The position numbers were made by a program, and so were the translations under genes. The notes below the pieces were generated by a model that was not told the DNA's origin, did no database searches, and worked only from the letters and a program-made list of their open reading frames with translations. From NCBI RefSeq assembly GCF_001907195.1, contig NZ_LVWA01000002.1, positions 186,001 through 250,000 of the forward strand: a stretch of DNA of 64,000 nt, in the 5' to 3' direction. Of the stretch, positions 1 through 64,000 are shown piece after piece; position 1 is the stretch's first letter; every line of letters starts with the position of its first letter. This stretch comes from Pontibacter flavimaris. Lineage in GTDB: Bacteria; Bacteroidota; Bacteroidia; Cytophagales; Hymenobacteraceae.

Positions 1-20
1 TTAAAAGTAAACTTCTTCAT
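1..20 (-). CDS. Possible 5' end of a gene running off the left edge
   Basis: On the minus strand an ATG at 18-20 opens a frame reading MKKFTF up to the window edge. Met-Lys-Lys followed by hydrophobic residues is a common start of exported proteins in this phylum. Only six codons are visible, so this is a weak suggestion and no product can be named. Confidence 0.3.
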
Positions 21-570
21 ACTACACAATTTTAATTATTCCGATACTATACCTACACGCAAACCTCTCCCCCGCTGCCCTGATCAAAGAAGCAACAATG
101 CCAGCAATAACAAGCGTATTTTGTTTTTAGACGGGATGTAAGAGAACTGTGATGTGGTGATTTGTACGAGGCTTCCTCAGAAACGGCTAAAATAAAGTAC
201 AATTTTTTCTGCCGGATAGGGGCTTTAGAATGAGATTCATACTATATACACGGCTCAAACGGATGTAAAACCCGCACAGGAAAGAATTTACCGGATGTGA
301 GGATTCTCATTTCGCAAAGGTATTTGGTTTGTGCAGGGAGATGCTTGCTGTTATGTGGTAAAAAGCCGTGCAAGCATGTTCCAATCAGCCTGTACAAGTA
401 TAAATTTCCCCTGTTGGCAAAGGCTAAGCGCCAGGGATGATACAGGCAGGTAATAGCCGGCAGCCGGCAAGTATAGCAGGAAAGCCCAAGCCGGGAATGA
501 GCGGCGGCAGGCAGGTATGATCTTACAGTTTGATCAGGCTGCCGAATGTCTGATCAGCAGCAGCCGCACT
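21..570. other. Gap without a supported gene
   Basis: No convincing open frame, RNA gene or long repeat is visible in this 550-bp stretch. It carries three copies of the AAGTATA heptamer, near 388, 468 and 571. It lies downstream of the minus-strand MFS gene and upstream of the possible gene at the left edge. Confidence 0.6.
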
Positions 571-1743
571 TTATACTTCTTTCTCCCTCTTTACCACTAA
601 CACCAGGTACAGAAACGCCAGCAGCGAGAAAACACCCGACGCCCAGAACACCAGGGTAAAGTTGCTGCTTTGGTTAGCATAGAGCCAGCCTGAACCAAGC
701 GCCCCCAAACCAATGCCCGCCTCCAGCGCAATATACATGGTGGCCATGGCACGGCCGCGGTGCTCGAGGTGGCTCAGGTCGATCGTCCAGGCGTAAATGG
801 TGGGTGAGTTCATGCCTGTGGCTACCCCGAACAGCACCCCCGCCAGCAGCAGCCCCGTATCCGTGGTCACCAACCCGATCACGAGCATCGCCAGTGTCAG
901 GAGCGCGGAGCTGACGCGCAGCACAGCCACGCGGCCATACTTGTCGGAGGCCCTGCCGGCCAGAAAACGAATGGCCAGCGAGGAGAGCGTGAAGGAGGTG
1001 AAGAAAAGCCCTTTGTTCTGGATGCCCAGGTGCGTGCTGAAATCGGGGATGATGGTGAGGATGGTGCCAAAGCCGAAGGAGGTGAGCAGCATGACCAGCG
1101 AGGGCGCCAGCACCCGCGGCTCCAGCACCTCGCGGCGGTTTATGCGCAGCAGGCCCAGGCTGAATTTCTTTGGATGGGATACTGTCTCCTGCATGTGCCA
1201 GATCACGGCCACTGATAGAAAAGCCGCTGCCGACGAAGTATAGAACATCACATTAGCCGTGTACTCACTCGCCAGAAGTCCGCCCAACGCAGGCCCCGCA
1301 GCCATGCCCAGGCTCCCTGAAAGGCCCAGCAGCCCCATCGCCTCGCCGCGCCGCTCCACCGGCACCAGGTCGGCCACGTAGGCCGAGTTGCCCGTGGGCG
1401 TGAAACCTGTGGAGAAGCCGTGGACGAAGCGCAGCAGCAGGAAAGCGCCCACAGAGGCGACCAGCGGGTACAAAAGGCCCGCCAGCACACAGACCAATCC
1501 CCCCACCACCATTACCGGCACACGCCCGATCTGGTCGGCCAGTTTGCCGCTAAAGGGCCGGGAGAGGCCAGCGGTAAGTGCGAAAAGTGCGATGATGAGG
1601 CCTTTATACTCCTCGCCCCCTAAACCAGCCAGGTAGTCGGGCAACTCCGGGATGATCATGTTGAAGCTGGAGAAAAAGAGGAAGGCACTCAGGCAGAGCA
1701 ACCCGAACTGCACCCCATACACACGCTTTGTCTGTTCAGCCAT
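571..1743 (-). CDS. MFS transporter
   Basis: A 390-aa major facilitator superfamily permease of about 12 membrane helices in the inner membrane. The loop 2-3 signature is visible at residues 66-74 (GKLADQIGR), and its pseudo-repeat in the second half reads GRASDKYGR near residue 262, which marks the MFS_1 drug-exporter-like fold. The length is normal for the family. It stands alone, with no regulator or partner beside it, so the substrate cannot be told. An efflux role is the likeliest but is inference. Confidence 0.9.
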   Translation of the reverse strand: MAEQTKRVYGVQFGLLCLSAFLFFSSFNMIIPELPDYLAGLGGEEYKGLIIALFALTAGLSRPFSGKLADQIGRVPVMVVGGLVCVLAGLLYPLVASVGAFLLLRFVHGFSTGFTPTGNSAYVADLVPVERRGEAMGLLGLSGSLGMAAGPALGGLLASEYTANVMFYTSSAAAFLSVAVIWHMQETVSHPKKFSLGLLRINRREVLEPRVLAPSLVMLLTSFGFGTILTIIPDFSTHLGIQNKGLFFTSFTLSSLAIRFLAGRASDKYGRVAVLRVSSALLTLAMLVIGLVTTDTGLLLAGVLFGVATGMNSPTIYAWTIDLSHLEHRGRAMATMYIALEAGIGLGALGSGWLYANQSSNFTLVFWASGVFSLLAFLYLVLVVKREKEV

Positions 1744-1946
1744 AGTCTATACTTCAGGCCGCAATTTGGCAAAGGTTTGGGTTTCGTGCTAATGAGGAGC
1801 GGAGGATTTGGGCGTGCAGCAGTATGGCCGGAGGCTGGCACCTGGAAAGTATAGAGAATAATTCCCGGCCGTAAACAGGCAGGCGTAGGTTTACGCTGTC
1901 AGGAGATTGGGAAGTATACTTTACTTTCCTGCATTCCTAAAAAAAA

Positions 1947-2447
1947 TCACACCTGCATAGCCGGCGAAGTGGGGGATGGTTTTACGCCGTTGATCATGAT
2001 GCCCTGCTCCAGGGCTGCCAGATGGATGCTCCGTGACACATGGCGGGCTACGTCCGGCTTTTGTATGGCGCTCAGGCGCATTTTCGTTACATTACCTCCC
2101 TTCAGCATAAACTCGATCACGTACTCGGTGATGTGCAATTCCTGTATCTGCTGCCACTCCACCACTTTCTCCGTGCCCAGTAGGGTCAGGCGGTACACGA
2201 TGCGGTCGGGCGTCATGGAGAAGAAGGCATCCTTAAAGTGCAGCATGTCGGTGCCATAGGCCAGCGGGAGCAGGCCCAGGAGCACCATTGCGCCGCTCGC
2301 TAGGGCCCAGCCCTCGCGGAACAAGTCCATCCACAGGAACTCGCGGAGCAGCGCGTACCCGCCCCCAAGCACCAGGAACAAACCAATAAGGAGCACTGTC
2401 CTTTTAGTGGACCGCAGCTGCTTGCCCGGATACAGATTTACGTACAT
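1947..2447 (-). CDS. Two-TM protein with a cytoplasmic PH-like tail (paralogue 2)
   Basis: This 166-aa protein has two membrane helices (about residues 17-35 and 45-63), then a soluble domain rich in alternating beta-type residues, resembling the small bacterial PH-like domains that follow paired helices. Its order of parts matches the protein encoded 21 bp upstream at 2469-2945, so the two are probably diverged duplicates in one operon. No function is known. The pair may form a hetero-oligomer; that is inference. Confidence 0.75.
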   Translation of the reverse strand: MYVNLYPGKQLRSTKRTVLLIGLFLVLGGGYALLREFLWMDLFREGWALASGAMVLLGLLPLAYGTDMLHFKDAFFSMTPDRIVYRLTLLGTEKVVEWQQIQELHITEYVIEFMLKGGNVTKMRLSAIQKPDVARHVSRSIHLAALEQGIMINGVKPSPTSPAMQV

Positions 2448-2468
2448 ATCGTTAACCTTGGGATGTTT

Positions 2469-3060: not shown

Positions 3061-5055
3061 ATGAAAATACGCTATACCTGGCTGCTTGCCCTGGGTACGC
3101 TGGCCTCTTGCCAGTACCTTCCCCTGCAGCGCAGCACCACCCATACGCTACAGCCCTCCAACAATAAGTTCGGCGATGTAACCCTGCAGGAGATTTATAC
3201 TTTGCAGGATGAGCGCAACACGCTTGAGCTGCTGCCATACCTCAGCAACCCCACCACCGCTTACCGCCGCCACGCCGCGCTGGCCTTTGCCTCCGTGCAG
3301 GATACCGCTGCCCTGGACGCCCTGCAGGGCATGCTGGAAGACTCGGTTGCGTCTGTGCGGGAAGCCAGCGCCTATGCCCTGGGCCAGATAGGGCATAAGC
3401 GCTCCGAGGCTGAGATCATCAACAGGATTAGTGAGGAGCAGAACCCGCAGGTGCAGGCGCAGCTGCTGGAGGCACTGGGAAAGGTGGGCACAGCCCAGGC
3501 CGCTGATTTTCTGGCCACCTACAAAGCCGCTACCCCCGATGCCCTGGCCGGGCAGGCGTGGGGCATGTACCGCCTGGGCCTGCGCCAGCAGCAGAGCCAG
3601 CAGGTGGTGCAGAAGGCCGTCGAATTACTGTCCCCCAACACCATTTACGAGGCCCGCCTGGCCGCCGCACACTTCCTGGCCCGCACCCCCAAGCTGGACC
3701 TGACCCAATACCGCCTGCAGTTGCTGAACGCCGCCACATCCGACAAGGCACCGGAGGTGCGCATGGCTACCGCGCAGGCCCTGGCCAAGGTAAGGGCGCT
3801 GGACAAGGCTACTTTCCTGTCCACCATCGCGCAGAGCGACCCCGATTACCGCGTGCGCCTGAGTGCGGTGCGCTCCATGAGCGGGCTGGAGTTCCCCGAG
3901 ATCAGCAAGGCCGTACTGGCCGCGCTGCAGGACCAGAACGTGAACACGGCCGTGGCCACCTCGGAGTTCCTGCTGGCCAACAACGCCGGGGTGCCGGCCC
4001 AGACGCTGCTCAACGTGCTGCCCAACCTGCTCGATGCCCGCGTGCGCAGCAACGTGATTTGGGTGATCCTGAAGAACAGCCAGGTGCAGAACCGCGTGTA
4101 CCTGAACCCACGCTACAAGCAGCAGTTCCACAACGCACGCACCGCCTACGACAAGGCGCACCTTTTAAAGGCCCTCTCCGGCGACGTTAACAACCATGAG
4201 TTTATAGCCGAGCAGGTGTTTGTGGCCGAGGAGCCCGTGATTGCCACCACCGGCATGGAGGCCCTGATCCTGATGCGCCAGCAGCGGGATTTCCCGAAGC
4301 GGCTGGAACCTGCCTTTGCCGATATCTTTAAACACGCCGTGGCCTCTGGCGACGTGGCCCTGGTGGGCATGGCCGCCGCCGCCATCCGCGACCCGAAGCT
4401 GAACCTGCGCAGCCAGTACGGCAACTATACTTTCCTGAGCCAGGCACAGGAGAAACTGCAGTTGCCCCGCGACATGGAGACCAACATCGAGCTCCAGAAA
4501 ACCATCGACTACCTGAGCGGCAAGCAGGAAAGCCAGACACCCCAGAACCCGTTTACCCACCCCATCGAATGGGAGCTGGTGAAAACCATCCACAGCAACC
4601 AACAGGTACTGCTGCGCACCGAGAAAGGAAGTATAACCCTGCAGCTTTTCGTGGAGGATGCCCCCGGCTCGGTGGCTAACTTCGTGGAGCTCGCGCAGCA
4701 GGATTTCTTCAACGGTTTATACTTCCACAGGGTGGTGCCCAACTTTGTGGCGCAGGGCGGCGATAAGCGCGGCGATGGCTGGGGCAGCTCCGACTACTCC
4801 ATCCGCTCCGAGTTTACCCCGATGCATTACTACGAGGGCTACGTGGGCATGGCCTCCGCCGGAAAGGACACCGAGAGCAACCAATGGTTCATCACCCACT
4901 CCCCCGCCCCGCACCTGGACGGCCGCTATACCATCTTCGCCAAGGTGATTGACGGCATGGATGTGGTGCACCGCCTGGAGGTAGGCGACAAGATTGTGGA
5001 TGTGGAGGTGCTGGGCCTGCAGCCCGCGGTAACAAGTGCGGCAGAGGAGTTGTAA
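3061..5055 (+). CDS. HEAT-repeat lipoprotein fused to a cyclophilin-type peptidyl-prolyl isomerase
   Basis: This 664-aa protein starts with a lipoprotein signal (LASC, lipidated Cys17). Residues about 45-480 are a run of HEAT-like helical repeats (repeated Ala/Leu-rich pairs such as VREASAYALGQIG). Residues about 515-655 form a cyclophilin domain with the FHRVVPNF active-site segment, the QGGD turn and a closing GRYTIFAKVIDGMDVV. Cyclophilins catalyse cis-trans isomerisation of Xaa-Pro bonds. The lipid anchor puts it in the envelope, where the HEAT solenoid could hold clients for the isomerase domain. The arrangement recurs in Bacteroidota; the client is unknown. Confidence 0.9.
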   Translation: MKIRYTWLLALGTLASCQYLPLQRSTTHTLQPSNNKFGDVTLQEIYTLQDERNTLELLPYLSNPTTAYRRHAALAFASVQDTAALDALQGMLEDSVASVREASAYALGQIGHKRSEAEIINRISEEQNPQVQAQLLEALGKVGTAQAADFLATYKAATPDALAGQAWGMYRLGLRQQQSQQVVQKAVELLSPNTIYEARLAAAHFLARTPKLDLTQYRLQLLNAATSDKAPEVRMATAQALAKVRALDKATFLSTIAQSDPDYRVRLSAVRSMSGLEFPEISKAVLAALQDQNVNTAVATSEFLLANNAGVPAQTLLNVLPNLLDARVRSNVIWVILKNSQVQNRVYLNPRYKQQFHNARTAYDKAHLLKALSGDVNNHEFIAEQVFVAEEPVIATTGMEALILMRQQRDFPKRLEPAFADIFKHAVASGDVALVGMAAAAIRDPKLNLRSQYGNYTFLSQAQEKLQLPRDMETNIELQKTIDYLSGKQESQTPQNPFTHPIEWELVKTIHSNQQVLLRTEKGSITLQLFVEDAPGSVANFVELAQQDFFNGLYFHRVVPNFVAQGGDKRGDGWGSSDYSIRSEFTPMHYYEGYVGMASAGKDTESNQWFITHSPAPHLDGRYTIFAKVIDGMDVVHRLEVGDKIVDVEVLGLQPAVTSAAEEL

Positions 5056-11642: not shown

Positions 11643-11879
11643 GCTATCGAACTGATTCCAGCCTTTGGGTTGAGCGCCTATGCGAGTTTTTCCGGTGCCG
11701 AACGCTAGTGAGGCAGCCCGAGGCACGAGGGCAGGAAAAGCTCCCAGCGCGATGCCCAAAGGCGAGGCCTCCCGGCCTTGAGGGAGCCAAAGTATGAAAT
11801 GAAGCGAGACGCTTGTAAGACTGAGGATCAGCGGCAGCTAGTAAAGATAGCTTGTGTCAAAATGCAGGAAGCGGCGGCT
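11643..11879 (+). repeat. 237-bp dispersed element, copy A (core type 1)
   Basis: It starts at GCTATCGAACTGAT and ends at GAAGCGGCGGCT. Constant parts include CCAGCCTTTGGGTTGAGCGCC near the left end in most copies, GCGCGATGCCCAAAGGCGAG in the middle and GAGGATCAGCGGCAGCTAGT near the right end. Its core reads GTTTTTCCGGTGCCGAACGC and then AGGCAGCCCGAGGCACGAGG, shared with copies B and E. Many internal segments can pair. It is non-coding. Confidence 0.85.
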
Positions 11880-12106
11880 CAAGGAAGTATACAATGGCAC
11901 AAGCGGACGCTCCGAAACTTTCAGCTTGCGCCAGGGAAAGTATAAAGTAAAGTATAGCAGCAAGTATGAAACTATGGCTTTTCAAGCCAGTCAAGTTGCA
12001 AACTCGACCTCATCGTAGGATACAAGTCTGAAGACTTGCACCATGGAAAAAGACAGTTATAAATTATAGCTCAAGTATAAAGTATACCTATCGAAGTATA
12101 AAGAAA

Positions 12107-12328: not shown

Positions 12329-12384
12329 AGCTACTTTGCGGCAGAGACCGCGTATGATTTACAGCAAAAGGCGGCAAGTTTTGC

Positions 12385-12422: not shown

Positions 12423-14756
12423 ATGTTAAAAAGAATCCTTTCACTCCTCCTTTTAGTCTCGCTGAGCACGCCGTTCGCGGCCAAGGCAGACGAAGGTATG
12501 TGGTTGCCGATGCTCATCAAGCGTCTGAACTACACCGATATGCAGAAGCAGGGACTTCAGCTGACAGCCGAAGAAATCTACTCTGTCAATAATTCGAGCC
12601 TGAAGGATGCCATCGTGCAGTTCGGTGGCTTCTGTACCGGCGAGTTCGTCTCCCCGGAAGGTCTGCTACTCACCAACCACCACTGCGGGTACGGCCAGAT
12701 CCAGTCGCACTCCACGCCTGAAAAAGATTACCTGACCAACGGTTTCTGGGCTACTTCCAAAGACCAGGAGCTGCCAAACGAGGGCCTGTTTGTGGACATC
12801 CTGCACTACATGGACGATGTGTCGGCCAAAGTTCTGGAAGGTATCGACAACAACACGCCGGAAGAGCAGCGCGCCCAACTGATTGCCCAGCGTACGCAGG
12901 CACTGGCCAAAGAGGCTTCTGAGAACGGCAAGTACGTAACGTATGTGCGTGATTTCTTCAATGGCAACGAATTTTACCTGTTCGTCTACAATCGGTATAC
13001 CGACGTGCGCCTGGTAGGTGCTCCGCCATCTTCTATTGGTAAGTTCGGTGGCGATACGGATAACTGGATGTGGCCACGCCATACCGGCGACTTTTCGATG
13101 TTCCGCGTGTACATGGCGCCGGATGGCTCTCCTGCCACGTACAGCAAGAGCAACGTGCCTTACAAGCCAGCCCACCACCTGCCCATCAACATCGGCGACA
13201 AAGATCCGGGCGACTTTGCCATGGTTTTTGGCTTCCCGGGCCGCACCAAGCGTTTCATGACCTCGCACGGCCTGAAACTGGAAGTAAACCAGCTCAACAA
13301 CTCCCGCATTAAGCTGCGCGAGAAAAAGCTGGATATCTGGAAAAATGAGATGGATAAGAGCGACGACACGCGCATCAAGTATGCCTCCAAGTATGCCTCT
13401 ACCTCCAATTACTACAAATACTCCATCGGCCAGAACGAAGGTATCAAGCGCATGCGCACTATCGAGGGTAAAATTGCCGACGAGGATAAGTTCCAGTCCT
13501 GGGCCAACGCCGACGCCGAGCGCAAAGCTACCTACGGCAACGTGATGAGCGACATTGCTGACGCCTATGCCACCATCGAGAAGTATAACCTGGGCTCGGT
13601 GTACCTGAACGAAGCCGTGCTGGGCACGGAAGCGCTGCTGATGGCTTACCGCCTGACGCCGGTTTACAACGCCCTGAAGTCGGGTAACGCGGCCGCTGCC
13701 AGGAAAGCAGCTGAGGACGTAAAACCGCGCGTAGACGCTTTCTTTAAAGACTACCACCTGCCAGCCGACAAGAAGGTGTTTGCTGCTATGATGAAGGCCT
13801 ACCACGAGGACATCGCCAAAGACCAGCAGCCAGAAGCCTTCAAAAAGCTGGTGCAAAAGTATAAAGGCAACTTCGAGAAACTGGCCGACCACGTATATAG
13901 CAACTCCATTGTGGTGAACGAGCAGAAACTCAACAGCTTCCTGCAGAATCCAACCCAAAAGGCGCTTGATAACGACCCGGCTTTCCAGATCGTGAGCTCC
14001 ATTGTGGACAACTACAGAAACAACATCGCACCGAAAGTAGCTGAAAGCGAGGCCAAACTGGCCAAAGCCAACCGCCTGTACGTAGCCGGCCTGCGCCTGA
14101 TGAACCCGGACAAAGTATTTTATCCGGATGCTAACTCCACCATCCGCCTGAGCTACGGTTCCGTGAAAGGCTACAGCCCGCAGGATGGGGTGGAGTACAG
14201 CTACTATACTACCCTGGAAGGCACTATGGCCAAGGAAGACCCAAGCAACGAGGAGTTCATCATTCCGGCCAAGCTCAAGCAGCTGTATGAAGCCAAAGAC
14301 TACGGCCGCTACGCCAACTCCAAAGGCGAGCTGGTGGTTAACTTCATCACCGACAACGACATCACGGGCGGCAACTCCGGTTCTCCGGTGATCAACGGCA
14401 AAGGCGAGCTCATCGGCCTGGCCTTCGACGGCAACTGGGAAGCCATGACCGGCGACCTGGTATACGACCCGGACTACAAACGCTGCATCAACGTGGACTC
14501 GCGCTACGTGCTCTTCCTGATCGAAAAGTATGCCGGTGCCACCAACCTGATCAACGAGATGACGATCGTGGACGGCGAGAACCCAGGCCCAAGCGAAGCT
14601 GCCACAGCTAAAGCAGAAGAAGCCGCCACGCCGCAGGCCGAGCTGCTGAAATCAGTTGTAGAAGAGGCCCGGCAAAACCTGAAGCAAGGCAAAACCGAGT
14701 TTAAGGTAGATAAGAAACAAGGCAAAGCCAGAGTTAAACTGCAGGTGAAGGACTAA
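12423..14756 (+). CDS. S46 family dipeptidyl-peptidase (DPP7/DPP11-like)
   Basis: A 777-aa secreted serine peptidase with an N-terminal signal peptide (cleavage near AAKA). S46 enzymes remove dipeptides from peptide N-termini in the periplasm. The trypsin-like histidine lies in TNHHCG (His86/87) and the nucleophile in GGNSGSP (Ser652). Position +18 from that serine is Gly, as in DPP7-type enzymes that prefer hydrophobic residues; DPP11-type enzymes have Arg there. The specificity is therefore inferred. The C-terminal 45 residues are Lys/Ala/Glu-rich, beyond the usual catalytic region. Confidence 0.95.
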   Translation: MLKRILSLLLLVSLSTPFAAKADEGMWLPMLIKRLNYTDMQKQGLQLTAEEIYSVNNSSLKDAIVQFGGFCTGEFVSPEGLLLTNHHCGYGQIQSHSTPEKDYLTNGFWATSKDQELPNEGLFVDILHYMDDVSAKVLEGIDNNTPEEQRAQLIAQRTQALAKEASENGKYVTYVRDFFNGNEFYLFVYNRYTDVRLVGAPPSSIGKFGGDTDNWMWPRHTGDFSMFRVYMAPDGSPATYSKSNVPYKPAHHLPINIGDKDPGDFAMVFGFPGRTKRFMTSHGLKLEVNQLNNSRIKLREKKLDIWKNEMDKSDDTRIKYASKYASTSNYYKYSIGQNEGIKRMRTIEGKIADEDKFQSWANADAERKATYGNVMSDIADAYATIEKYNLGSVYLNEAVLGTEALLMAYRLTPVYNALKSGNAAAARKAAEDVKPRVDAFFKDYHLPADKKVFAAMMKAYHEDIAKDQQPEAFKKLVQKYKGNFEKLADHVYSNSIVVNEQKLNSFLQNPTQKALDNDPAFQIVSSIVDNYRNNIAPKVAESEAKLAKANRLYVAGLRLMNPDKVFYPDANSTIRLSYGSVKGYSPQDGVEYSYYTTLEGTMAKEDPSNEEFIIPAKLKQLYEAKDYGRYANSKGELVVNFITDNDITGGNSGSPVINGKGELIGLAFDGNWEAMTGDLVYDPDYKRCINVDSRYVLFLIEKYAGATNLINEMTIVDGENPGPSEAATAKAEEAATPQAELLKSVVEEARQNLKQGKTEFKVDKKQGKARVKLQVKD

Positions 14757-14812: not shown

Positions 14813-14819
14813 TATTTTT

Positions 14820-15681: not shown

Positions 15682-18018
15682 ATGAGATTGAATAAAACGT
15701 TCCCCCTGTTGCTTAGTCTGGCCTTGTTACTGGGGCTTGGCAGTGCCCAGGCGCAGAACCAGGTAGCAACTCCGGCCATTTCCATCATCCCCAAGCCGCA
15801 GCACCTGACGCCCCAGAGCGGCCACTTTACCCTCAATGCCGATACGAAAGTTCACGTGCCGGCTAAAAATGAGGAGCTCAAAAGTATCGCTGACCAGCTG
15901 GCCCAAAGTATAAAAACCGCTACCGGTGTGCAGCCGCAGGTGGTACAAAAAGACCCGAAGAAAAAGGCCAGAAACATCATCCAACTCAGCCTTACCACAG
16001 CCCCTGATACCTTAGGCAAGGAAGGCTATACGTTAGAAGTAACACCTGAGCAAATTATACTTGCCGCCAACCAGCCCAATGGGCTTTTTATCGGTTCCCA
16101 AACAATACAACAGCTGCTGCCGCCGCAGCCTACCAAGGCGCCGGTAACGATCCCTGCGGTAAGTATAGCCGATAAACCCCGCTACGAGTGGCGCGGCATG
16201 CACCTGGATGTGACGCGTCATTTCATGCCCGTGGAGTTTGTGAAGCAGTACATCGACTACCTGGCCATGCACAAGCTCAACACCTTCCACTGGCACCTGA
16301 CCGATGACCAGGGATGGCGCATCGAGATCAAAAAGCACCCGAAACTCACCGAGATTGGCGCCTGGCGCGACAGCACCCTGATCGGCCATTACTGGGATCT
16401 GCCCCAGACCTACGACGACAAACGCCACGGTGGTTTTTATACCCAGGAGCAGATAAAAGACGTGGTAAAGTATGCCCAAGAGCGCTACATCACGGTAGTT
16501 CCTGAAATTGAGATGCCGGGCCACGTCCTGGCCGCACTGGCAACCTATCCGGAGCTGGCCTGTACGGAAGGGCCGTTTAAAGTAGAAGGCAAGTGGGGCA
16601 TTTTCGATGATGTTTTCTGCGCCGGAAACGAGCAGACCTTTGCGTTTCTGGAGGATGTGCTGGTGGAAGTGATCGCCCTGTTCCCAAGCGAGTACATCCA
16701 CATTGGCGGCGACGAAGCCCCGAAAACCCGCTGGAAAGTATGCCCGAAGTGCCAGAAGCGCATCAAAGACGAAGGCCTGAAGGATGAGCACGAGCTGCAG
16801 AGCTATTTTGTCCAGCGCATGGAGAAGTTTTTGAACAGCAAAGGCCGTCAGATCATCGGCTGGGACGAGATCCTGGAAGGCGGGCTGGCCCCGAACGCGA
16901 CCGTGATGAGCTGGCGCGGCGAGAAAGGCGGCATTGAGGCAGCTAAGCAAAAGCACAACGTCATCATGACGCCCGGCAACTACGTATACTTCGACCACTA
17001 CCAGGGCGACCGGGAGCTGGAGCCGGTGACCATCCATGGCGCTAACCCGCTTTCGAGGGTTTACGCTTACAACCCTACGCCGGCAGAGCTTTCCAAAGAA
17101 GAGCAAAAGTACATCCTAGGCGCCCAGGCCAACGTTTGGACTGAGTATATGCCTAACCCGAAGCATGTGGAGTACATGGCCTTCCCGCGCATCGCGGCCC
17201 TGTCGGAAGTGCTCTGGACGCCGCTACACCTGAAAGACTGGGAAGACTTTAAAACGCGTATGCAGCAGCAGTACCAGCGCTACGATGCCATGGGCATAAA
17301 CTACGCCAAGAGTGCCTTCCAGGTGAAGCAGCAACTGCAGGTAGTTCCTGAGCGCAAGGCCGCCAAGGTGACGTTCACCACCGATGCTGCCGGAACCGAT
17401 ATTTTTTACACGCTCGATGGTTCTGAGCCAACAGCCCAATCGCAGAAGTATACCGGGCCGTTTGAGCTGACGAAAGCTGCCGTGATCAAGGCAGGTTCTT
17501 TTAAGGATGGCAAACTGATAGGCCAGGCCACAACCAAAGTTTTTGATGCTCATAAGGGCTTCAACCGCAAGGTAACGCTGGCCAGGGAGCCGCACCGCAG
17601 CTTCTCGCCGGGTACAGCCACTTTGGTAAACGGCCTCTACGGCACCACCGACCACTACGACGGTCACTGGCTGGGCTACCTGAAAAATGACCTGGAAGCC
17701 GTGATCGACCTGGAGCAGGTGCAGTCCATCTCTAGAATCAGCAGCTCTTACGTGCAGCACATCGGCTACCGCGTGTTCCTGCCTAAGCAGATAGAGTATG
17801 CCGTGTCGGAGGATGGCAAGAACTTTAAAACCGTGAAAGTGATCAGCAACACCGGCAAGGAAGAAGGTATCATGCGTAAAACGGTTGCCGCCGAGTTTCC
17901 GGCCACCAAGGCGCGCTATGTAAAGGTGACGGCCCGCAACGTGGGCATAGCCCCTGCCCAGTATCCTGTAGCCGGCCGCGAAACCTGGCTGCTGGTAGAT
18001 GAACTGAGCGTAGAGTAG
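15682..18018 (+). CDS. GH20 beta-N-acetylhexosaminidase
   Basis: A 778-aa exported enzyme (signal peptide ending SAQA) that releases terminal N-acetyl-glucosamine or -galactosamine from glycans. An N-terminal GH20b domain (about 30-150) is followed by the catalytic barrel. The catalytic pair is Asp344-Glu345 in GGDEAP; HWHLTDDQGWR and a WTEYM segment shape the substrate site. A chitobiase C-terminal domain (about 550-620) and a discoidin-like F5/8 type C domain (about 640-778) follow. It is probably periplasmic or surface-located. It is not in an operon with the SusCD genes downstream. Confidence 0.93.
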   Translation: MRLNKTFPLLLSLALLLGLGSAQAQNQVATPAISIIPKPQHLTPQSGHFTLNADTKVHVPAKNEELKSIADQLAQSIKTATGVQPQVVQKDPKKKARNIIQLSLTTAPDTLGKEGYTLEVTPEQIILAANQPNGLFIGSQTIQQLLPPQPTKAPVTIPAVSIADKPRYEWRGMHLDVTRHFMPVEFVKQYIDYLAMHKLNTFHWHLTDDQGWRIEIKKHPKLTEIGAWRDSTLIGHYWDLPQTYDDKRHGGFYTQEQIKDVVKYAQERYITVVPEIEMPGHVLAALATYPELACTEGPFKVEGKWGIFDDVFCAGNEQTFAFLEDVLVEVIALFPSEYIHIGGDEAPKTRWKVCPKCQKRIKDEGLKDEHELQSYFVQRMEKFLNSKGRQIIGWDEILEGGLAPNATVMSWRGEKGGIEAAKQKHNVIMTPGNYVYFDHYQGDRELEPVTIHGANPLSRVYAYNPTPAELSKEEQKYILGAQANVWTEYMPNPKHVEYMAFPRIAALSEVLWTPLHLKDWEDFKTRMQQQYQRYDAMGINYAKSAFQVKQQLQVVPERKAAKVTFTTDAAGTDIFYTLDGSEPTAQSQKYTGPFELTKAAVIKAGSFKDGKLIGQATTKVFDAHKGFNRKVTLAREPHRSFSPGTATLVNGLYGTTDHYDGHWLGYLKNDLEAVIDLEQVQSISRISSSYVQHIGYRVFLPKQIEYAVSEDGKNFKTVKVISNTGKEEGIMRKTVAAEFPATKARYVKVTARNVGIAPAQYPVAGRETWLLVDELSVE

Positions 18019-18094: not shown

Positions 18095-18790
18095 GTTATT
18101 TCATTATTCCAAGGAGCATCTCAGCAGCGCCGGGTCCAACCACCCCTAGCCCCTCCTTGTCTAAGGCGGGGAATTTAACCTCACCCCAGCCCTCCCCTAA
18201 AAACAGGAGAGGGAGTCCGGTTCAAACTGCATAGCAGGTGGCTATCGAACTGATCCCAGCCTTTGGGTTGAGCGCCTTGTGAGATTCCGGTGCCCTGCAA
18301 GGGCATTGCGACCGAAGGGTAGCAAAGGAAGGGAACACAGCGCGATGCCCGAAGGCGAGCCCTCTCGGGCTTGAGAGAGCCAAAGTATAAATGCAACAGT
18401 AGGTTTGTAAGGCTGGAGGATCAGCAGTTGCTAGTAAGTATAGCTTGGTTCAGGTTGCGGGAAGCGGTGGCTTAGGGAGGCACAAGCGGACGCTTGCGCC
18501 AGAGAAGTATAGAAGTATAGCAGCAAGTATAAACTGAAGTATAAAAGTATGGCTTACGCGGACTAGAAAGTCCGCAGCAGCAGTAGTTCCGGACACGGAT
18601 GTCCGAAACAGCACAAAGTATAAAGTATAGCTTAAGTATAAGTATGGCTCTGCGAGCCAGTTGGGTTGCAAACCCAACACCATAGTAGGCACGAGTTGCA
18701 AACTCGCGCCAGCGAGAGGGGCCTTGGATGAGGGAAAGGTAAAGCGGACGCTTGCGCCAGAGGAAGAGGATCGATAGGAATTAGCTATAA
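18095..18790. repeat. Composite repeat island 3
   Basis: No gene in about 700 bp between convergent genes. CCCCTCC modules (18140-18215) come first, then the 232-bp element (18241-18472), then a cluster of AAGTATA copies and hairpins: CAAGCGGACGCTTG (18483-18496), GCGGACTAGAAAGTCCGC (18558-18575), GGCTCTGCGAGCC (18647-18659), GTTGGGTTGCAAACCCAAC (18660-18678) and CGAGTTGCAAACTCG (18692-18706). This is the clearest hairpin series in the window. Confidence 0.85.
18241..18472 (+). repeat. 232-bp dispersed element, copy C (core type 2)
   Basis: It has the same ends as the other copies, but the core differs: GATTCCGGTGCC, a GCCCTGCAAGGGC hairpin, then GCGACCGAAGGGTAGCAAAG, shared with copy F only. 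The flanking constant segments still align, so the core has been exchanged rather than slowly diverged. Confidence 0.85.
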
Positions 18791-22928: not shown

Positions 22929-23573
22929 TTATAGTTTGACAAACGTGCGGGGAGCCGCGCCATAGCCGGAGTTGATAACAGACCAAGTATAGCTGACCCC
23001 AGGTATCACGGTGGCATCAACAGCGGCGAACTCACTGCCCTGCACATCCTGCGGAGGCACCCCCAACTGACCAACATCATAATGAAAGAACCTGACAGTT
23101 GTGGAAGGGCCTGGTGCGGCGACGCCTCCTATGTTATCCGTCTCGAACAAGCCCGGCTCAATCTGGGTAACGGTTGAGACCCCCAAGGCACCCGCGTTGC
23201 GCTTGTACTGCCCGCTCAGATCAATGGCCGCCGCCTCGGGGGTAACAACGCCCACGTACCTTCTGATAGAGCCCGAGAAGCCATCCTGGTTAACGGCGGT
23301 ATAGGTGAGCACATATACGCCGGGCACGTTGGGATCCACTGTTCCCGATGTAGTATACTCGATGGCGGTTTCGCCCTCAAATGCCTCTGCCCCGGGATCT
23401 GTGAAGGCCTCCCCTACCTGCAAAACTTCCCACTGCTCCCCGACCAGCGACACAACCGGATAGGTGGTAATAAACGAGACATTCGCGGTTTCATCATCTT
23501 TCTCGCAGCCGGACAAAAGAAGGGCGGAGGCGGAAAGTATGACCATCATGAAGATTTTATTAAGAATTTTCAT
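22929..23573 (-). CDS. DUF5011 (Ig-like) domain lipoprotein
   Basis: A 214-aa lipoprotein (LLSGC lipobox). Residues about 45-110 form a DUF5011 immunoglobulin-like domain with the typical DPGAEAFEG and VPGVYVLTYTAVNQDG segments. Such proteins act as surface glycan or protein binders in SusCD loci. It lies 24 bp after the SusD-like gene in the same operon. The C-terminal third shows no recognised fold. Confidence 0.8.
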   Translation of the reverse strand: MKILNKIFMMVILSASALLLSGCEKDDETANVSFITTYPVVSLVGEQWEVLQVGEAFTDPGAEAFEGETAIEYTTSGTVDPNVPGVYVLTYTAVNQDGFSGSIRRYVGVVTPEAAAIDLSGQYKRNAGALGVSTVTQIEPGLFETDNIGGVAAPGPSTTVRFFHYDVGQLGVPPQDVQGSEFAAVDATVIPGVSYTWSVINSGYGAAPRTFVKL

Positions 23574-23597
23574 CTTTCTTGCGTTTTAGGTTCCACA

Positions 23598-25079
23598 TTA
23601 ATCCTTCACGTCCCACCACACCGGCTCGTTTATCTCGATCAGGCCGGGATAATTCTGGTTCCGGATCGCTTCCGTGTTAGGGTATACCAGGCGCTTGGGG
23701 ATCAGGTCCGCGCCCAGCGTGGAGGCAGCCGATGGCGCTATAAAGCTGGGGTAACCGGTTCTTCTGTACTCTGTCCACGACTCGAAGCCCTGCACCCCGT
23801 TAAACGATACCCATTTCTGCGTGAGGATCTGCTCGACCTGCGCCTCCACGTCCCCTCCGGCGGGGTAGGCTACGCCGGACTGTTGGAGCAGCTGGTCTAC
23901 CAGTGCCACATCCTCTCCCAGGTAATCAAAAGAGGCTCTGATGCCCTGCGCATACAGCTCGCTGGCCTCACCGCCTGCCCCTCCTGTCCAGCCGCGGGCT
24001 GCGGCCTCGGCCTGCAGAAAGAAGCTCTCTGCCGCCGTTAAAAATGGCACCGCTGTTGTCGGACTGGCCACGGCAGGTCCCGGCTTGGATACCGTGTTAG
24101 ACTGATCGCCGCTTCTATCAGGGGTACATTCCACCCCCTGGTCTACCCCCACAAAGTTGCCGGCCGCTGCACCCGTTTCTGCCGGGGCATAAAGCTCATT
24201 AAGGCGCGGGTCATTTGTTTCCTGCAGGTAGCTGAGGGAGGTATTACTGGCCACCACATCCACCCCTCCTCTAAACTCCACCTGGGTCTGGAAGAAAGGA
24301 TTCCGGTTCAGCGTCTGGTCAGCAAACGCCACACCACCTGTCTCCCCTATCTGCAGGAATTCCGCGCCGCTGGCATACAGGGCCTGTATGCCATTCTGGG
24401 CAACATCGGGCCTTACGTATGCCTGACGCAGGTATATTTTGAGTTTCAGCGTGTTAGCAAACCTGCGCCACAAGCCCATGTCTCCCCCATACACCAAATC
24501 CGCGTCGCCAAGGCCGGAGGGGGCCTCCTCATCAATCAGCAGCAAAGCCGAGTCGAGTTGAACGATGAGCAGGTCGTAGATCTCCTGCTGCGACTGGTAC
24601 TCCGGATTGGAGTTCTCCAGGCCTGCCAGCGCACTGGTGTAAGGCACATCTCCCCAGGCATCTGTGATAACCTGCATGGTATACACCTCCATGATCCGCC
24701 CGATCGCCTCGGCATTCTGTATGCTGTCCTCCCGGGCCTGGTCGCTTACAAACCGGAAGTCCTGCAGGGCACCGGCATACAACTCGCCCCACACGCGGGC
24801 ATCGTAGTCAGAAGAGGTGATCTGATACAACTCCAGGTCGCAGTACTGGTTGGCGGCGCCGGCCTGGGTCCAGTGCTGAGCGAAGAAGTTGCCCAAAAAC
24901 TGAAACTGGTTGCCCAGCACATAGGCCAGCTCGCCCTGCGCCGCCGGCAAGGTTAGCGCCGGCGTGGAAGTGGGCGGGTTGTTGGGGTCCACGTTAATAT
25001 CGAGGTAATCGTCGCACGCTGTAAAGCCGAGAGAGAAGGCAAAGAGTACAGCAAGCACTTTTATAGATAGCTTTTTCAT
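23598..25079 (-). CDS. SusD/RagB family lipoprotein (SusD-like 2 type)
   Basis: A 493-aa surface lipoprotein (FTAC lipobox, then DDYLDINVDPNNP). The N-terminal pattern and the QAYVRPDV, LFQLQAEAA-like TPR helices fit the SusD-like_2 family, which forms the lid of a SusC transporter and captures ligand at the cell surface. It is second in the operon, 21 bp after susC. No glycoside hydrolase lies in the operon, so peptides or another polymer fragment are as likely as glycan. Confidence 0.93.
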   Translation of the reverse strand: MKKLSIKVLAVLFAFSLGFTACDDYLDINVDPNNPPTSTPALTLPAAQGELAYVLGNQFQFLGNFFAQHWTQAGAANQYCDLELYQITSSDYDARVWGELYAGALQDFRFVSDQAREDSIQNAEAIGRIMEVYTMQVITDAWGDVPYTSALAGLENSNPEYQSQQEIYDLLIVQLDSALLLIDEEAPSGLGDADLVYGGDMGLWRRFANTLKLKIYLRQAYVRPDVAQNGIQALYASGAEFLQIGETGGVAFADQTLNRNPFFQTQVEFRGGVDVVASNTSLSYLQETNDPRLNELYAPAETGAAAGNFVGVDQGVECTPDRSGDQSNTVSKPGPAVASPTTAVPFLTAAESFFLQAEAAARGWTGGAGGEASELYAQGIRASFDYLGEDVALVDQLLQQSGVAYPAGGDVEAQVEQILTQKWVSFNGVQGFESWTEYRRTGYPSFIAPSAASTLGADLIPKRLVYPNTEAIRNQNYPGLIEINEPVWWDVKD

Positions 25080-25100
25080 GATTTTCTCGTCTTCGGTTCG

Positions 25101-28100
25101 TTAGAAAGTAACTCTGAGGTTAGCCCCCCAGGAGCGGGTGCTTGGGTAACTACTGAACTCATAGCCCTGCAGGTTGCCGTTGCCAAAGCTGTTTGTCTCC
25201 GGGTCGATGTAGGTGTTCTCGTCCGGGGTCCACAGCACCAGGTTACGGCCCGAGAGCCCTACCTCTATGTTACCAAAGAAGGTCTTCTCTGTGAGGGTGG
25301 CCGGCAACCTGTAGGAGATGCTCACTTCCCTTAGTTTGGTAAAAGAGGCATCTATGATGTTGGTACCCTCAGGTAGGTTGCCCCAGTATTCGTACAGGTT
25401 GGTGTTGGTAAGCGGTGTGGTATTCTCGATGTACTCATCGCTGGTACCCACCTGCACCACAGAGTTGGGTATGATGTATGGCTGGCGATCGTTGAAGAGC
25501 GTTTCGGGAGCGGTGCCGGCAAAGCGCTGCGTACCCCTTGTTCTGGAGTAGATCTTACCGCCCTGGCGCGTATCAAACACCACCGACATGCGCAGGCCTT
25601 TGTAAGTAAAGGTGTTTATCAGGCCGCCCTGCCAATCCGGCTGAATGGTACCCTGATAGGTCTGCTCCGTAGAGAGCCGTGGCCGGCCGGTAGAGGCGTT
25701 CACCACGATACGGCCCTGCGGGTCGCGCAGGTAATCCTCGGCCAGGAACGTGCCATAGGGCCGCCCCTCTGAGATAACCAGTGCCGCCGCCGCCAAACCT
25801 CCCAGCGAGATCTCGTTATCCCCAGCCACGTCCTCCACCGTGTTCTCATTCTTGGTGAAGTTCACGCTGATGTCCCAGCTGAAATCCCCTATCTCGAGCG
25901 GAATGCCCCCGACAAGCAGCTCAACCCCCTCATTGCGGATAGTGGCCGCGTTCAGGAAGGCAGAGCCGAAACCTGTGGCATAGGAGAGCGGCACGTTGAT
26001 GATCTGGTCAGTGGACTTGGAGTTATAGTAGGCCGCATCCAGGCGCAGGCGCTCGTTGAAGAAGCGCAGGTCGGCACCCACCTCCCAGGAACTCGTGTTC
26101 TCCGGCTCCAGTTTCTCGTTGCCGATCACGTTGCTTACTTCAAAACCGGGCAGGCCGGCAAACGGGAAATTCAGATCAGTATCGGCAAAGCCATCGCTAA
26201 TGTTGCCCGAGATAAACACAGACCGCGTGCTGTAAGGCAGCGCGTCGTTACCCACGTTGGCATAGTTGGCCCTGATCTTAGCAAAATTGATCGGGGTGGT
26301 CTCTGCCAGGCCAAAGGCCTCTGCCGCATCAAACGCCAGGTTCACGGAGGGGTAGAAAAAGCTATTATCGCCGATGGGCAGCGTAGAGGACCAGTCGTTG
26401 CGGCCGGTAACCTCCAGCCACAGAAAGTTCCTGTAGCCTACCTTCGCCGATCCGTATACCCCCACCAGCCTGCGCTTATCCCTGAAACTGGTAGTAAGCG
26501 GCGTGCCAATGATGTTGCTCAGCGACCTGAACTCGTTGTTGGCCAGGGCGTCGGCAGTGGCTGACAGATCATCATTCTCGCGTTGGTTAATGTTGTTGCC
26601 TACCAGGACATCCAGCGTCAGCAGTTCCGACAACTCCCTGGTATAGGACACGATCAGGTCAGAGTTAACCTCCCTGTAGTAGATCTGGCGCTCCTGGTAC
26701 ATGCCATTGTTGTTGTTGGCAGTATTCTGCCCCTCCACGTCCCGGATGGCCATAAACTGCTTGCGCCGGTCGGTGTAGAAGTCCGTGCCGATGCGGTAGG
26801 TTACGTTGAGCCCCTCCATGATATCATACCCGATGGTGATGTTGCCGAACAGGCGGTCCACCTCATTCTCATAGGTCTGGTTCCTTAGCGACCAGTATGG
26901 GTTGATGGTGTAGGGCGAGTAGAAACCCGCCTCGTCGTTAAAGGGGCTTTCCAGGTCCTCCAGCTCCCGCACCGGAATGTCTCGCGGCGTCTGGATGATC
27001 TGGTTGAAAACGGAGTTGCCCTGCCCTGTCAACGCAAAGTCGCCGCCAGACTTGGTGTAAGTAAGGGAGGCGGAGGAGTTGAACTTGTTGAGAAGCTTTG
27101 TAGTGCCCTTCACGGCAAGGGAGTGGCGGTTATACTCTGTTGTGGGCACCACGCCCTCCTGCCGCGTATTGGAGTAAGAGGCATAGTAGGTAGCGTTATC
27201 GGCGGCCCCGGACAGCGAAACCGTGTTGGTCCAGTTGTGGCCGTAATCGAAGAACTCCTTGATGTTATCCTCCAGGGCAGCATATGGCTTTACGCGCTGC
27301 TGGTTATCTATTACCTGGCCCCATGGCAGCAGCTCGCCCGTAAAGGCTGGTCCCCAGCTGGTGTTCTCCAGCAGGTCCGGCTCCCCGAAGAAGCCTTGCC
27401 CGTAGCGGTTCTGCAGCTCGGGGTAGCGCAGGACATCCTCTATCGTATAAGAAGTCAGGAAAGTGACCTCGGCCTTCTTGGTGGCCCCTCTGCCCGATTT
27501 GGTTGTGATCATGATCACCCCGTTTGCAGCGCGGGCACCGTAGAGCGCCGCCGCCGCCGGCCCTTTCAGGATGTTGATGGACTCGATGTCATCCGGGTTA
27601 ATGTCGTTGGCGCGGTTACCCACGTCCACTCCGGCATTCAGGTCATCCCCCGTTCCGGTGCTGCCGTTGTCGATCGGGATACCGTCTATCACAAATAAGG
27701 CCTGGTTGCTCTGGGATATGGATTTAGCGCCACGAATAACCACGCGGGTAGAAGCACCGGGACCGCCGCCCTGGCTCTGTATGTTTACGCCGGCTACCTT
27801 GCCCTGCAGGGCGTTGGCTACGCTGCGCTCGCGGCCCTGCGTTAGTTGCTCAGCGCCCACCTGCTGGGTGGCGTACCCCAGGGTCCTTTCCTCCTCCTCA
27901 CGGCCCAGGGCCGTCACCACCACCTCCTGCAGTTGCTCGGAGTCTAGGCCCATGGCCACGTTGATGGTGGAGGCGTTCCCGATCTCCCTTTGCACTTCGG
28001 CATAGCCCAGAAAGCGAAACATCAATGTTGTTGCATCCGCTGGCACGTTTAGCGTGTACTCGCCATTGGCACCGGTTGTAGTACCTACTGTAGTACCCTG

Positions 28101-45746: not shown

Positions 45747-45986
45747 GCTATCGAACTGATACCCAGTCTTTGGGTTGAGCGCCTATGCGAGTTTTTCCGG
45801 TGACGAACGCTAGTGAGGCAGCCCGAGGCACGAGGGCAGGAAAAGCTCCCAGCGCGATGCCCGAAGGCGAGGCCTCCCGGCCTTGAGGGAGCCAAAGCTA
45901 GAGATGAAACGGTAGGCTTGTGGGAACTAGAGGATCAGCGGCAGCTAATAAGAATAGCTTGTTTCAAATAAAAGGAAGCGGCGGCT
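45747..45986 (+). repeat. 240-bp dispersed element, copy E (core type 1)
   Basis: Nearly the same as copy A for its whole length, including the core (GTTTTTCCGGTGACGAACGC, AGGCAGCCCGAGGCACGAGG). It differs by scattered substitutions near the right end. It is in plus orientation between dps and the cvfB-like gene, both on the plus strand. Confidence 0.85.
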
Positions 45987-46431
45987 AAGGAAGTATAGAT
46001 CAAGTATAAGCAAAGTATAAAGTATGGCTTACGCGGATGTGGACGTCCGCAGGAGAAGGGTTCCGGACAGGGTATCCGGAACAGCAAGTATAAAAAGGTA
46101 CAAGCGGATGCTCACGCCAGCGAAAGTATAAAGTATGGCTTGTGCAAGTATGAAAGTATAGATCAAGTATGAAATATGGCTTTTCAAGCCAGTTGAGTCA
46201 GAGACGCAACACAACTGCAGGACACAAGTATAAATAACTTGCGCCATGAAAAAAGCAACGGCACAAACGGACACTTGCGCCAGAAAAGAGCAAGCAGTCC
46301 CAGGTATAAGCAGTGCCTTTCTCAACCCTCAGTTAATAAAACACCCTGTTCCTGCTTACCCGTATCCTCAACAAGTATACTTTATCCCTAATTATCTATT
46401 GTTACAACTTTTACGCCCGCCCGCTTTTTAG

Positions 46432-56031: not shown

Positions 56032-56149
56032 CAGCGGTTAAAGATAGTGCGATAATCACGACTTATGCACTACCCCTTATGAAATTAAACAAAGTATAAT
56101 ACCGGCTTTTTGGTTCACGGCAGCAGCTGTTTTATACTTTATACTCCTG

Positions 56150-62191: not shown

Positions 62192-62208
62192 AGCGACTGA
62201 ATTTGATG

Positions 62209-62216
62209 CAAATATA
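62209..62216 (-). promoter_or_regulatory. Candidate -7 box (TATATTTG) for the lipoprotein-cmk-ispH operon
   Basis: On the minus strand this reads TATATTTG, an exact match to TAnnTTTG, 17 bp before the TTG start. A -33 TTG at the normal spacing is not seen, so support is partial. The short distance would leave a very short leader. Confidence 0.45.
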
Positions 62217-62280
62217 AGGTAATTTGCCGGTTTAAGCCCACCTAACAGCGGGCAAATTTAAGTTCTAATCGATACAACCC

Positions 62281-63921
62281 ATGCAAACTGATCATACTGT
62301 TTCCGGACACATCATCGACATCCACAACCAGGAGATTTTCCAGGGCACGGTTCATGTGTCAAACGGCCGCATTTCTAAAATAGTTCGTGAGGCCACCTCC
62401 GGCACCAATTACATTCTGCCGGGATTTGTGGATGCCCACGTGCACGTGGAGAGCTCTATGCTGGTGCCATCCGAGTTCGCGCGGCTGGCTGTACCGCATG
62501 GTACCGTAGCCACCGTATCGGACCCGCACGAGATCGGCAACGTACTGGGGATAAAGGGCGTGGAGTACATGATCGAGAACGGAAAAAAAGTACCATTTAA
62601 GTTCTACTTCGGCGCTCCGTCCTGTGTTCCGGCCACGCCTTTCGAAACCGCCGGCGCAGAGATAACGGCCGCCGACATCGAGAAATTATTCCAGCGCGAG
62701 GAGGTAAAGTATCTGGCCGAGATGATGAACTGGCCCGGCGTGCTCAGCCGCAACCCGCAGGTGATGGAGAAGATCGAACTGGCCCAAAAGTATGGCAAAG
62801 CCGTGGACGGCCACGCGCCCGGGCTGCGGGGCGAGCAGGCAAAGCTGTACGCCTCGGCCGGCATCACCACCGACCACGAGTGCTTCACGGCCGAGGAGGC
62901 CCTGGACAAACTGGCCGTGGGCATGAAGATCCTCATCCGCGAGGGCAGCGCCGCGAAGAACTTCGAAGCCCTGATCCCTTTGCTGCCGGAGCACTATCAA
63001 AACACCATGTTCTGCTCCGACGATAAGCACCCTGATAACTTAGTGGAGGGCCACATCAACCTGCTGGTAAAACGTGCGCTGGCCAAGGGCAACGATCTGT
63101 TTCAGGTGCTGCAGGCGGCCTGCGTGAACCCGGTGGAGCATTACAAACTGGAGGTAGGCCTGTTGCGCGAGGGCGATGAAGCCGATTTTATACTTATCGA
63201 CAACCTAGACAGCTTTAACGTGCTGGCTACTTACATCAACGGCGAACGGGTGGCGGAGAACGGCAGATCCAACATACCCTTCACACCGGGCGAGGAGATC
63301 AACAACTTTGACACGGACGCGAAGGTGGCGCAGCAGTTTGAGGTGCCGGTTGGCGACGCGACCAAGATCCGGGTGATTGAAGCCTTTGACGGGCAGCTGA
63401 TCACCAGGCAAGTATGGGCGACGCCGCGCGTGGAGAATGGATTTATACTTTCGGACGTGGCGCAGGATGTGCTCAAGATCGCCGTGGTGAACCGCTACCA
63501 GAACGCCCTCCCGGCTGTGGCCTTTATCAAGAATGTGGGGTTGAAAGAAGGTGCCATCGCCTCCTCTGTGGGCCACGACTCGCACAACATCATCGCTGTG
63601 GGGGTGGATGACGAAAGTATAGCCCGGGCTGTGAATCTGATCATCGGGGCAAAGGGCGGTGTGGCTGCTGTGCGGAAGAATGAGGAGCAACTGCTGCCGC
63701 TGCCGGTGGCCGGCATCATGTCGGCCCAGGACGGGTACAAGGTGGCGGAGGCCTACGCGGCCATAGACCGTATGAGCAAGGAAATGGGCAGCACGCTGGC
63801 CTCGCCCTTCATGACGCTCTCGTTTATGGCCCTGCTCGTTATCCCCTCGCTCAAGCTCAGCGACCAGGGACTTTTCGATGGCGACACGTTCCAGTTCGTG
63901 CCGGTGGCGGAGAAAGTTTAG
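62281..63921 (+). CDS. ade: Adenine deaminase
   Basis: A 546-aa amidohydrolase that converts adenine to hypoxanthine in purine salvage. The metal-binding motif is [10 protein letters not shown] (His53, His55), followed by [33 protein letters not shown] and [12 protein letters not shown], all conserved in the family. The C-terminal Ade domain has [20 protein letters not shown]. The length is close to that of B. subtilis Ade. It is divergent from the cmk operon. Three heptamers lie within the frame. Confidence 0.95.
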
Positions 63922-64000
63922 AGTTTAGGAGTTAGAGCGTTTGAGAGCTGGAGGGTTGTAAAGAAGTAATGCCCTCACTCGCTTTTGACGGGTGTGCGGC
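63922..64000. other. Right edge, no gene visible
   Basis: Just after the ade stop is a degenerate GAGTTAGAG-type iteron (63926-63958), as after other genes. The remaining bases hold no readable start. Confidence 0.5.

Follow-up and report, generated by a model that had tools for sequence, protein, structure and literature searches.

A dialect-forming heptamer of the genus Pontibacter, probably a type IV pilus-independent DNA uptake signal that natural transformation maintains

We analysed a 64-kb window of the Pontibacter flavimaris genome (the whole stretch of 64,000 nucleotides, positions 186,001 to 250,000 of contig NZ_LVWA01000002.1), through which the heptamer AAGTATA, or TATACTT on the opposite strand, is scattered on both strands (1..64000). 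Counts, alignments and gene inventories pointed to AAGTATA as a genus-wide, dialect-forming Pontibacter word, most likely serving in DNA uptake as a signal maintained through natural transformation, with no type IV pili involved. We also think it probable, with somewhat less assurance, that the genus holds an uptake-signal system free of pili and divided into five dialects or more, each a partial sexual barrier, that shifts between dialects have been caught in progress, and that islands which break comM stop the drive and leave a genome slowly forgetting its word. An earlier interpretation of the window from its letters (hereafter the sequence-only reading) had listed an uptake signal, a nucleoid or segregation site, and a site spread by copying as candidate roles; the uptake signal, acting through spread by copying, was favoured by the dialects, by scarcity in plasmids and defence islands, by in-place change of the word and by an association with comM.

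Results

AAGTATA is in excess within and between genes

Exact copies numbered 196 in the window (88 on the plus strand and 108 on the minus strand) against 4.4 expected from base composition, a 44.7-fold excess that made AAGTATA the top 7-mer of the window by this measure. These figures agreed closely with the sequence-only estimate of about 195 copies against about 5 and a roughly 40-fold excess, and AAGTATG, said to add dozens, contributed a further 59 copies. The extended consensus around the sites was aAAGTATAAa, with A favoured on either side and little signal past 2 to 3 bases. Over the whole genome (4.62 Mb), 5461 + 5167 = 10,628 copies were counted, or 2.3/kb, compared to 134 + 142 = 276 copies of the reversed word used as a control. 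The ratio of observed to expected copies in the window was 45, 51, 24, 5.8, 1.9 and 1.1 under Markov models of orders 0 to 5. The sequence-only reading had proposed a 5-mer-conditioned model as a check, and here the outcome was divided: the excess of 45 to 5.8 at orders 0 to 3 stood, and the order-5 value of 1.1 fell on the refuting side, which we did not count as a refutation because that model draws on fragments of the heptamer itself; the heptamer accounts for 75% of AAGTAT and 92% of AGTATA occurrences in the window.

By the calls of a simple codon-score script, which fails in low-GC stretches and missed some genes, 90 of the 196 sites lay inside predicted genes, and site density was 1.8/kb in genes vs 7.6/kb between them. 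Each of the six frame and strand classes held 11 to 19 of the genic sites, and 300 synonymous-codon shuffles averaged 7.3 sites in genes, with 15 the highest, against which the observed excess was 12-fold; 29 of the 179 ATA codons and 18 of the 88 AGT codons of the window fell within sites. The statements that the word occurs in all reading frames and is not explained by protein sequence were thereby borne out, as was its presence both in genes and between them, the excess not being limited to intergenic islands (64 of 196 sites). All five in-gene sites that had been quoted were real and lay 1 to 3 bases from the quoted positions or closer: Gly-Ser-Ile at 4629..4635 (plus strand), Leu-Tyr-Phe at 4718..4724 (minus strand, antisense in the same gene), Lys-Tyr-Asn at 13581..13587 (plus strand) in a Dpp7-like peptidase gene, Ile-Ile-Leu at 16056..16062 (minus strand) and Tyr-Thr at 30073..30079 (minus strand). 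Chance and composition as sources of the excess were ruled out by the counts, the reversed word, the low-order Markov models and the codon shuffles, and protein sequence was ruled out by the presence of sites in all six frames.

The excess is confined to Pontibacter and the word forms dialects

A conserved radical-SAM gene of the window (41226-42515) identified 34 named Pontibacter loci at 83 to 94% protein identity. AAGTATA was counted in 37 Pontibacter genomes, with 786 to 11,818 copies per genome; this count did not extend to another 13 genomes of the genus (G352 to G364). Across 22 genomes of the order and 295 of the phylum outside Pontibacter, the top ratio of word to reversed word was 1.8 (G052) vs 38.5 in G000. 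The word excess is confined to Pontibacter.

The leading word of the 21-kb Pontibacter loci was AAGTATA, AGGTATA or AACTATA, with TATACCC (GGGTATA) in L018, and no leading word of the TATA kind was found at L010, L013, L020, L021 and L025. A scan of all NNNTATA words added a GGG/CGG/AGG-TATA form (L018, G036) and TATATAR (G362), giving five dialects with a TATA core in common: AAGTATA, AGGTATA, AACTATA, GGGTATA-like and TATATAR. The consensuses were aAAGTATAAa, cAGGTATAG and (a/c)AACTATAG. Among 50 genomes counted, AGGTATA reached 5,748 to 9,303 copies in 12 and AACTATA 11,674 to 13,168 in five, and TATATAG numbered 4,166 in G362 vs at most 902 in 15 others. Two genomes carried two dialects at once, with 7,552 AAGTATA and 8,118 AACTATA in G026 and 9,116 and 6,094, respectively, in G032. 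In four others (G023, G025, G027 and G033), AAGTATA exceeded the reversed word by a factor of just 1.3 to 2.5. Weak traces of AAGTATA, AGGTATA and AACTATA were seen in G002 and G007, which are candidates for loss of the receptor only.

In a midpoint-rooted species tree built from nine genes in 35 taxa, a single clade united the AGGTATA genomes (11 taxa, support 1.0) and another the AACTATA genomes together with the two mixed genomes (4 taxa, support 1.0), while the AAGTATA genomes were spread across the remainder and wordless genomes stood at three places. A second tree of 21 genomes joined G362 and G036 with support 1.0. The dialects thus track the species tree, and the two large derived dialects form clades. 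Head-to-head words overlapping by four bases were also frequent at AAGTATA, AGGTATA and AACTATA loci, where they make the perfect 10-base palindromes AAGTATACTT, AGGTATACCT and AACTATAGTT; such pairs were most frequent in the AACTATA dialect (20 pairs among 136 sites).

Sites are conserved and change in place in orthologues

Conservation of sites in orthologous genes, a check proposed in the sequence-only reading, was followed in 19 gene alignments, whose rows are non-independent, so that the ratios carry no valid p-value. Between AAGTATA-bearing genomes the word was conserved exactly in 1800 of 4901 comparisons vs 6376 of 44353 for permuted words. In columns holding AAGTATA, the AGGTATA genomes read AGGTATA in 659 of 2958 cases and AAGTATA in 174; the wordless genomes read AGGTATA in 69 of 1573 and AAGTATA in 114; and the two AACTATA genomes read AACTATA in just 14 of 526 and AAGTATA in 32. 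These readings indicated that the same position frequently carries the dialect that differs by one transition, but not the one that differs by a transversion. The pattern would fit a bias acting on random mutations, with the proviso that clade distances differ. Words one letter off were 1.7- to 2.2-fold raised in the comM-intact AAGTATA samples and in G001 and 1.5-fold in G021; those altered at the central T and A of GTA were hardly raised (0.8 to 1.3).

Plasmids and defence islands are poor in sites

The word was scarce in foreign DNA. Plasmid G001:C2 carried 0.19 sites/kb compared to 1.24/kb in the chromosome sample of the same genome, and plasmid G020:C2 carried 0.30 compared to 1.74/kb genome-wide; both are conjugative, as judged by their type IV coupling protein (T4CP) and TraG genes. 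Defence islands L157 and L181 held 2 and 4 sites in 20 kb, respectively.

Transformation genes are present and a pilus motor was not found

All 50 Pontibacter genomes contained comEC, dprA and comM, and 49 contained a comEA-like gene of 304 to 346 amino acids with two helix-hairpin-helix (HHH) domains (Pfam), G021 having a broken copy. Normal-length frames were counted for comEC in 47, dprA in 48, the HHH gene in 49 and comM in 44 of the 50. In G021, an AAGTATA genome, comEC, dprA, the HHH gene and comM were all broken, and 37 other neighbour genes showed one mid-gene stop and one stop seven residues before the end. In G009, an AGGTATA genome, comEC, dprA and comM were broken and the HHH gene had a stop at residue 15 of 318, with 34 of 34 other neighbour genes intact. 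Some neighbour genes flagged in the search for breaks were paralogue cross-matches present in the reference too. The joint breakage suggests that these genes form one pathway, because the set was broken in one AAGTATA and one AGGTATA genome. The comEC, dprA and HHH neighbourhoods of G021 and G009 revealed no further gene broken in both. G017, an AACTATA genome, had a comEC frameshift near codon 540, in the last quarter (frame 561 amino acids; G017:C23, L117), together with normal dprA, HHH gene and comM; this frameshift may be decay or an assembly error.

The full-length motor ATPase of type IV pili and type II secretion (PF00437) was not found in the 50 genomes, for most of which 31 of the 32 to 45 candidates from a first look were scored; the matches were partial, covering about 38 to 67 of 370 positions, and only three genomes rose above the cut-off, at 25 to 26 bits. 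The receptor is therefore unlikely to be a type IV pilin system of the usual sort.

Disruption of comM accompanies a lower density of sites in AAGTATA genomes

The comM gene was truncated in six of the 50 genomes, by foreign DNA in G001, G012, G019 and G031, by a stop in G021 and by a frameshift in G009. Tyrosine integrases adjoined comM in G001 and G031. The DNA flanking the remnant in G019 and G031 held restriction-modification or other defence-type genes, with a type ISP restriction enzyme in G019 and NurA and methylase domains in G031. We also observed that comM is an island insertion spot in Pontibacter (L233, L234, L235, L236), the remnants starting at codon 216 (G012, G019) or 350 (G001, G031).

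To the comparison of site densities we admitted the 16 of the 37 genomes with at least 4,000 AAGTATA copies and a single dialect, a cut set after the counts were known, which excluded the mixed G026 and G032 (comM intact). Disruption of comM was found in five of the 16, scattered on the tree, and these five carried 0.82 to 1.46 sites/kb (mean 1.16) vs 1.47 to 2.33 (mean 1.92) in the 11 with intact comM; the densities derive from rounded genome sizes, so that 1.46 and 1.47 are indistinguishable. Phylogenetic regression assigned −0.69 sites/kb to comM disruption (p = 0.0014). The pooled ratio of one-off to exact excess was 1.06 in the disrupted and 0.41 in the intact genomes (regression p = 0.0012). 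Such a pattern would be expected of a word that is upheld by transformation and decays without comM.

Discussion

A route by which an uptake signal could arise and persist can be proposed from these observations. DNA bearing the word would be bound by a surface receptor and enter the chromosome by copying during natural transformation, which would make the word spread and keep it in place. Loss of comM would weaken recombination of the imported DNA and let sites decay; a receptor of altered specificity would found a new dialect; and a receptor no longer specific would allow the word to fade from genomes that retain their competence genes. We infer that the cells are transformable and that their uptake prefers the word.

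Several observations weigh against this reading. Among the literature matches listed there was no transformation or uptake assay for Pontibacter. A receptor was not found among the candidates examined, namely DUF5689 and the comEC, dprA and HHH neighbourhoods; DUF5689, a domain of a Riemerella transformation gene, occurred in 22 of 50 genomes and was rejected as a receptor candidate because its presence does not track the word. Six gene families were searched, comM being the last. Adding G002 and G007, which have a weak word and intact comM, weakened the density regression, to p = 0.013 with lambda set to 1 and p = 0.056 with lambda set to 0; G031 hardly differed from its sister G018 (1.46 vs 1.49 sites/kb); the one-off ratio of G001 (0.81) lay within the intact range (up to 0.91); and the ratios for G012 and G019 came from 20-kb samples that included the inserted island. 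G009 has the broken gene set, yet the most AGGTATA of all (9,303) and no decay, and G017 has the comEC frameshift, yet 13,109 AACTATA; the two are reconcilable only by recent loss or assembly error. Little of the word was present in G023, G025, G027, G033, G002 and G007, yet their comEC, dprA, HHH gene and comM were of normal length. Depletion was milder in replicon G019:C2 (0.52/kb vs 0.82 genome-wide). Finally, G021 kept 22 of 63 G000 sites vs 63 of 126 in five other genomes, a difference that is just suggestive (p = 0.06), so that direct retention was set aside as proof of site decay in G021.

Among the alternatives, we regard as improbable the view that the words are by-products, made and kept by a dialect-specific DNA methyltransferase together with biased mismatch repair, in the manner of the highly iterated palindromes (HIPs) of cyanobacteria. 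HIP1 and the alternate HIPs, in the available excerpt of PMC4390886, occur at about one site per kb, a density of the same order as in Pontibacter, and likewise have lineage-specific replacements, each with a matching methyltransferase. However, HIPs are described there as GC-rich palindromes, whereas the Pontibacter words are mostly asymmetric and TATA-based: AAGTATA, AGGTATA, AACTATA and GGGTATA are neither symmetric nor rich in GC, so that four of the five dialects are non-palindromic, and only TATATA (G362) is a palindrome. The leading words are low in G and C, the upper strand of AAGTATA lacking cytosine altogether, and the association with comM is not predicted by such a by-product.

Direct selection on the binding site of an abundant nucleoid or regulatory protein, or on a promoter-like TATA element, would account for the four-fold higher density between genes in the window, for the resemblance of the reverse complements to −10 boxes (TATACT, TATAGT, TATATA) and for the excess of sense over antisense genic AACTATA in G030 (381 vs 230). 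Nevertheless, sense and antisense sites were nearly equal in G001 (133 vs 141), the difference in G030 was partly due to one empty antisense frame that would often bring a TAG stop, and neither the in-place change of dialect nor the comM association is predicted, which leaves this explanation very unlikely.

A recombination or segregation signal (like Chi, the KOPS sites or a nucleoid site), read by a DNA-repair or chromosome protein, would agree with the depletion of the word in foreign DNA, and Chi is likewise short, asymmetric and variable between species. The density of Chi, however, is far below the 2.3/kb of the word, some genomes carry hardly any word, and no replication-strand bias was found by GC skew, the G-rich strand holding 257 of 495 sites in G001 (p 0.42) and 548 of 1114 in G030 (p 0.61). 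A replication-oriented signal was thus rejected, and with it that form of the nucleoid or segregation role in the sequence-only list; the broader alternative has only a slim chance of being right. By gene strand, AACTATA in G030 was in slight excess on the gene-richer strand (598 of 1114, p 0.015) and AAGTATG in G001 tended the reverse way (134 of 305 on the gene-richer strand, p 0.039).

Dispersal by an intergenic repeat family, finally, is barely credible: 64 of the 196 sites do lie in six mosaic repeat islands, but 90 are genic and in all frames, the flanking sequence common to sites ends within 2 to 3 bases, and gaps at sites in orthologous genes were rare (152 of 5053 vs 614 of 44967 for permuted words), indicating that genic sites arise mostly by substitution, so that a repeat-borne origin is refuted for genic sites and covers at most the 64 in islands.

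The reading as an uptake signal can be set beside known systems. The two families in which the uptake of own-kind DNA is well understood, Neisseriaceae and Pasteurellaceae, both use type IV pili, and the uptake signal sequence (USS) of Pasteurellaceae is a word unrelated to that of Pontibacter. The DNA uptake sequence (DUS) of Neisseriaceae belongs to another phylum and is also an unrelated word, with a CTG core as opposed to the TATA core of Pontibacter. In the excerpts available to us, PMC3630211 describes the DUS as a short asymmetric word that recurs thousands of times in a genome (up to 5918 in 2.4 Mb) and has clade-coherent dialects around an invariant core, all as in Pontibacter, and one species as holding two dialects in near-equal numbers; an atypical distribution in mobile elements (PMC7371117) is a further likeness. 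The Pasteurellaceae USS, as partly accessible in PMC12616744, is an over-represented word with divergent dialects and a receptor long unknown, like that of Pontibacter, but its predicted receptor is a type IV minor pilin, unlike in Pontibacter. Since a full-length type IV pilus motor was not found, a ComP-like minor pilin is not expected in Pontibacter. We did not file the word under either system, because the pilus feature was looked for and not found and uptake itself is a prediction.

Riemerella, like Pontibacter, belongs to Bacteroidota, and the portions available of PMC8459023 and PMC7965970 name eight genes as essential for transformation, none of them a type IV pilus gene, including comEC, dprA, comF, recA and a gene for a helix-hairpin-helix protein. 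No uptake word for Pontibacter was among the literature matches listed, and there the nearest Bacteroidota case was R. columbina, which prefers its own DNA and has candidate k-mers of putative function (PMC7965970). For R. columbina and R. anatipestifer the candidate words are either A-rich 10-mers in roughly five-fold excess or words occurring at about 0.5/kb, and no dialect system is described in those portions. In Acinetobacter, mobile islands interrupt comM as in Pontibacter, and their removal raises transformability (PMC7508600, PMC11472951, in the parts available); there transformability was measured, whereas the observations in Pontibacter are of site density and decay.

If the word is indeed an uptake signal, Pontibacter would provide a third, unrelated and pilus-free case, in Bacteroidota, which would mean that the trait evolves repeatedly and with another kind of receptor. 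A single genus that combines five dialects, mixed genomes, genomes almost devoid of the word and natural comM knock-outs offers a ready test bed for an old question: is it biased uptake (drive) or a benefit to the cell that makes such words spread? Adding the word to donor DNA should then raise transformation, a handle for Pontibacter genetics.

Intergenic islands, a site-free interval and local arrays

The six intergenic islands of the window measured 0.8 to 1.3 kb (~11100-12420, 14760-15680, 18020-18835, 31690-32500, 45330-46485 and 56040-56835) and had mosaic repeat modules in common, in either orientation, with heptamer clusters between the modules at 11 sites/kb. Four intergenic stretches carried AAGTAT[AG] in one direction only, namely 11840..12013 (4 copies, plus strand), 18460..18691 (5 + 4, plus strand), 31749..31927 (7, minus strand) and 45946..46216 (4 + 6, plus strand). 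The longest interval without a site was 5.5 kb (22985..28494) and contained a SusC/RagA receptor gene and its neighbours; GC content was normal across it, and the region is possibly a recent arrival.

Outside Pontibacter, the words of Dyadobacter L056 and L058 (an array of ~52 bases) and Mucilaginibacter L051 (a 7-base array) were rejected as local arrays rather than dispersed words; loci L051 to L082 entered only the word scans that revealed such arrays. The ~52-base units of L056 and L058 contain TTATAG and have a CRISPR-like spacing. TTCCGGA-like words were about three- to nine-fold over-represented, according to the model used, both in Adhaeribacter and in certain Pontibacter that lack a TATA word (L037, L048, L049, L021).

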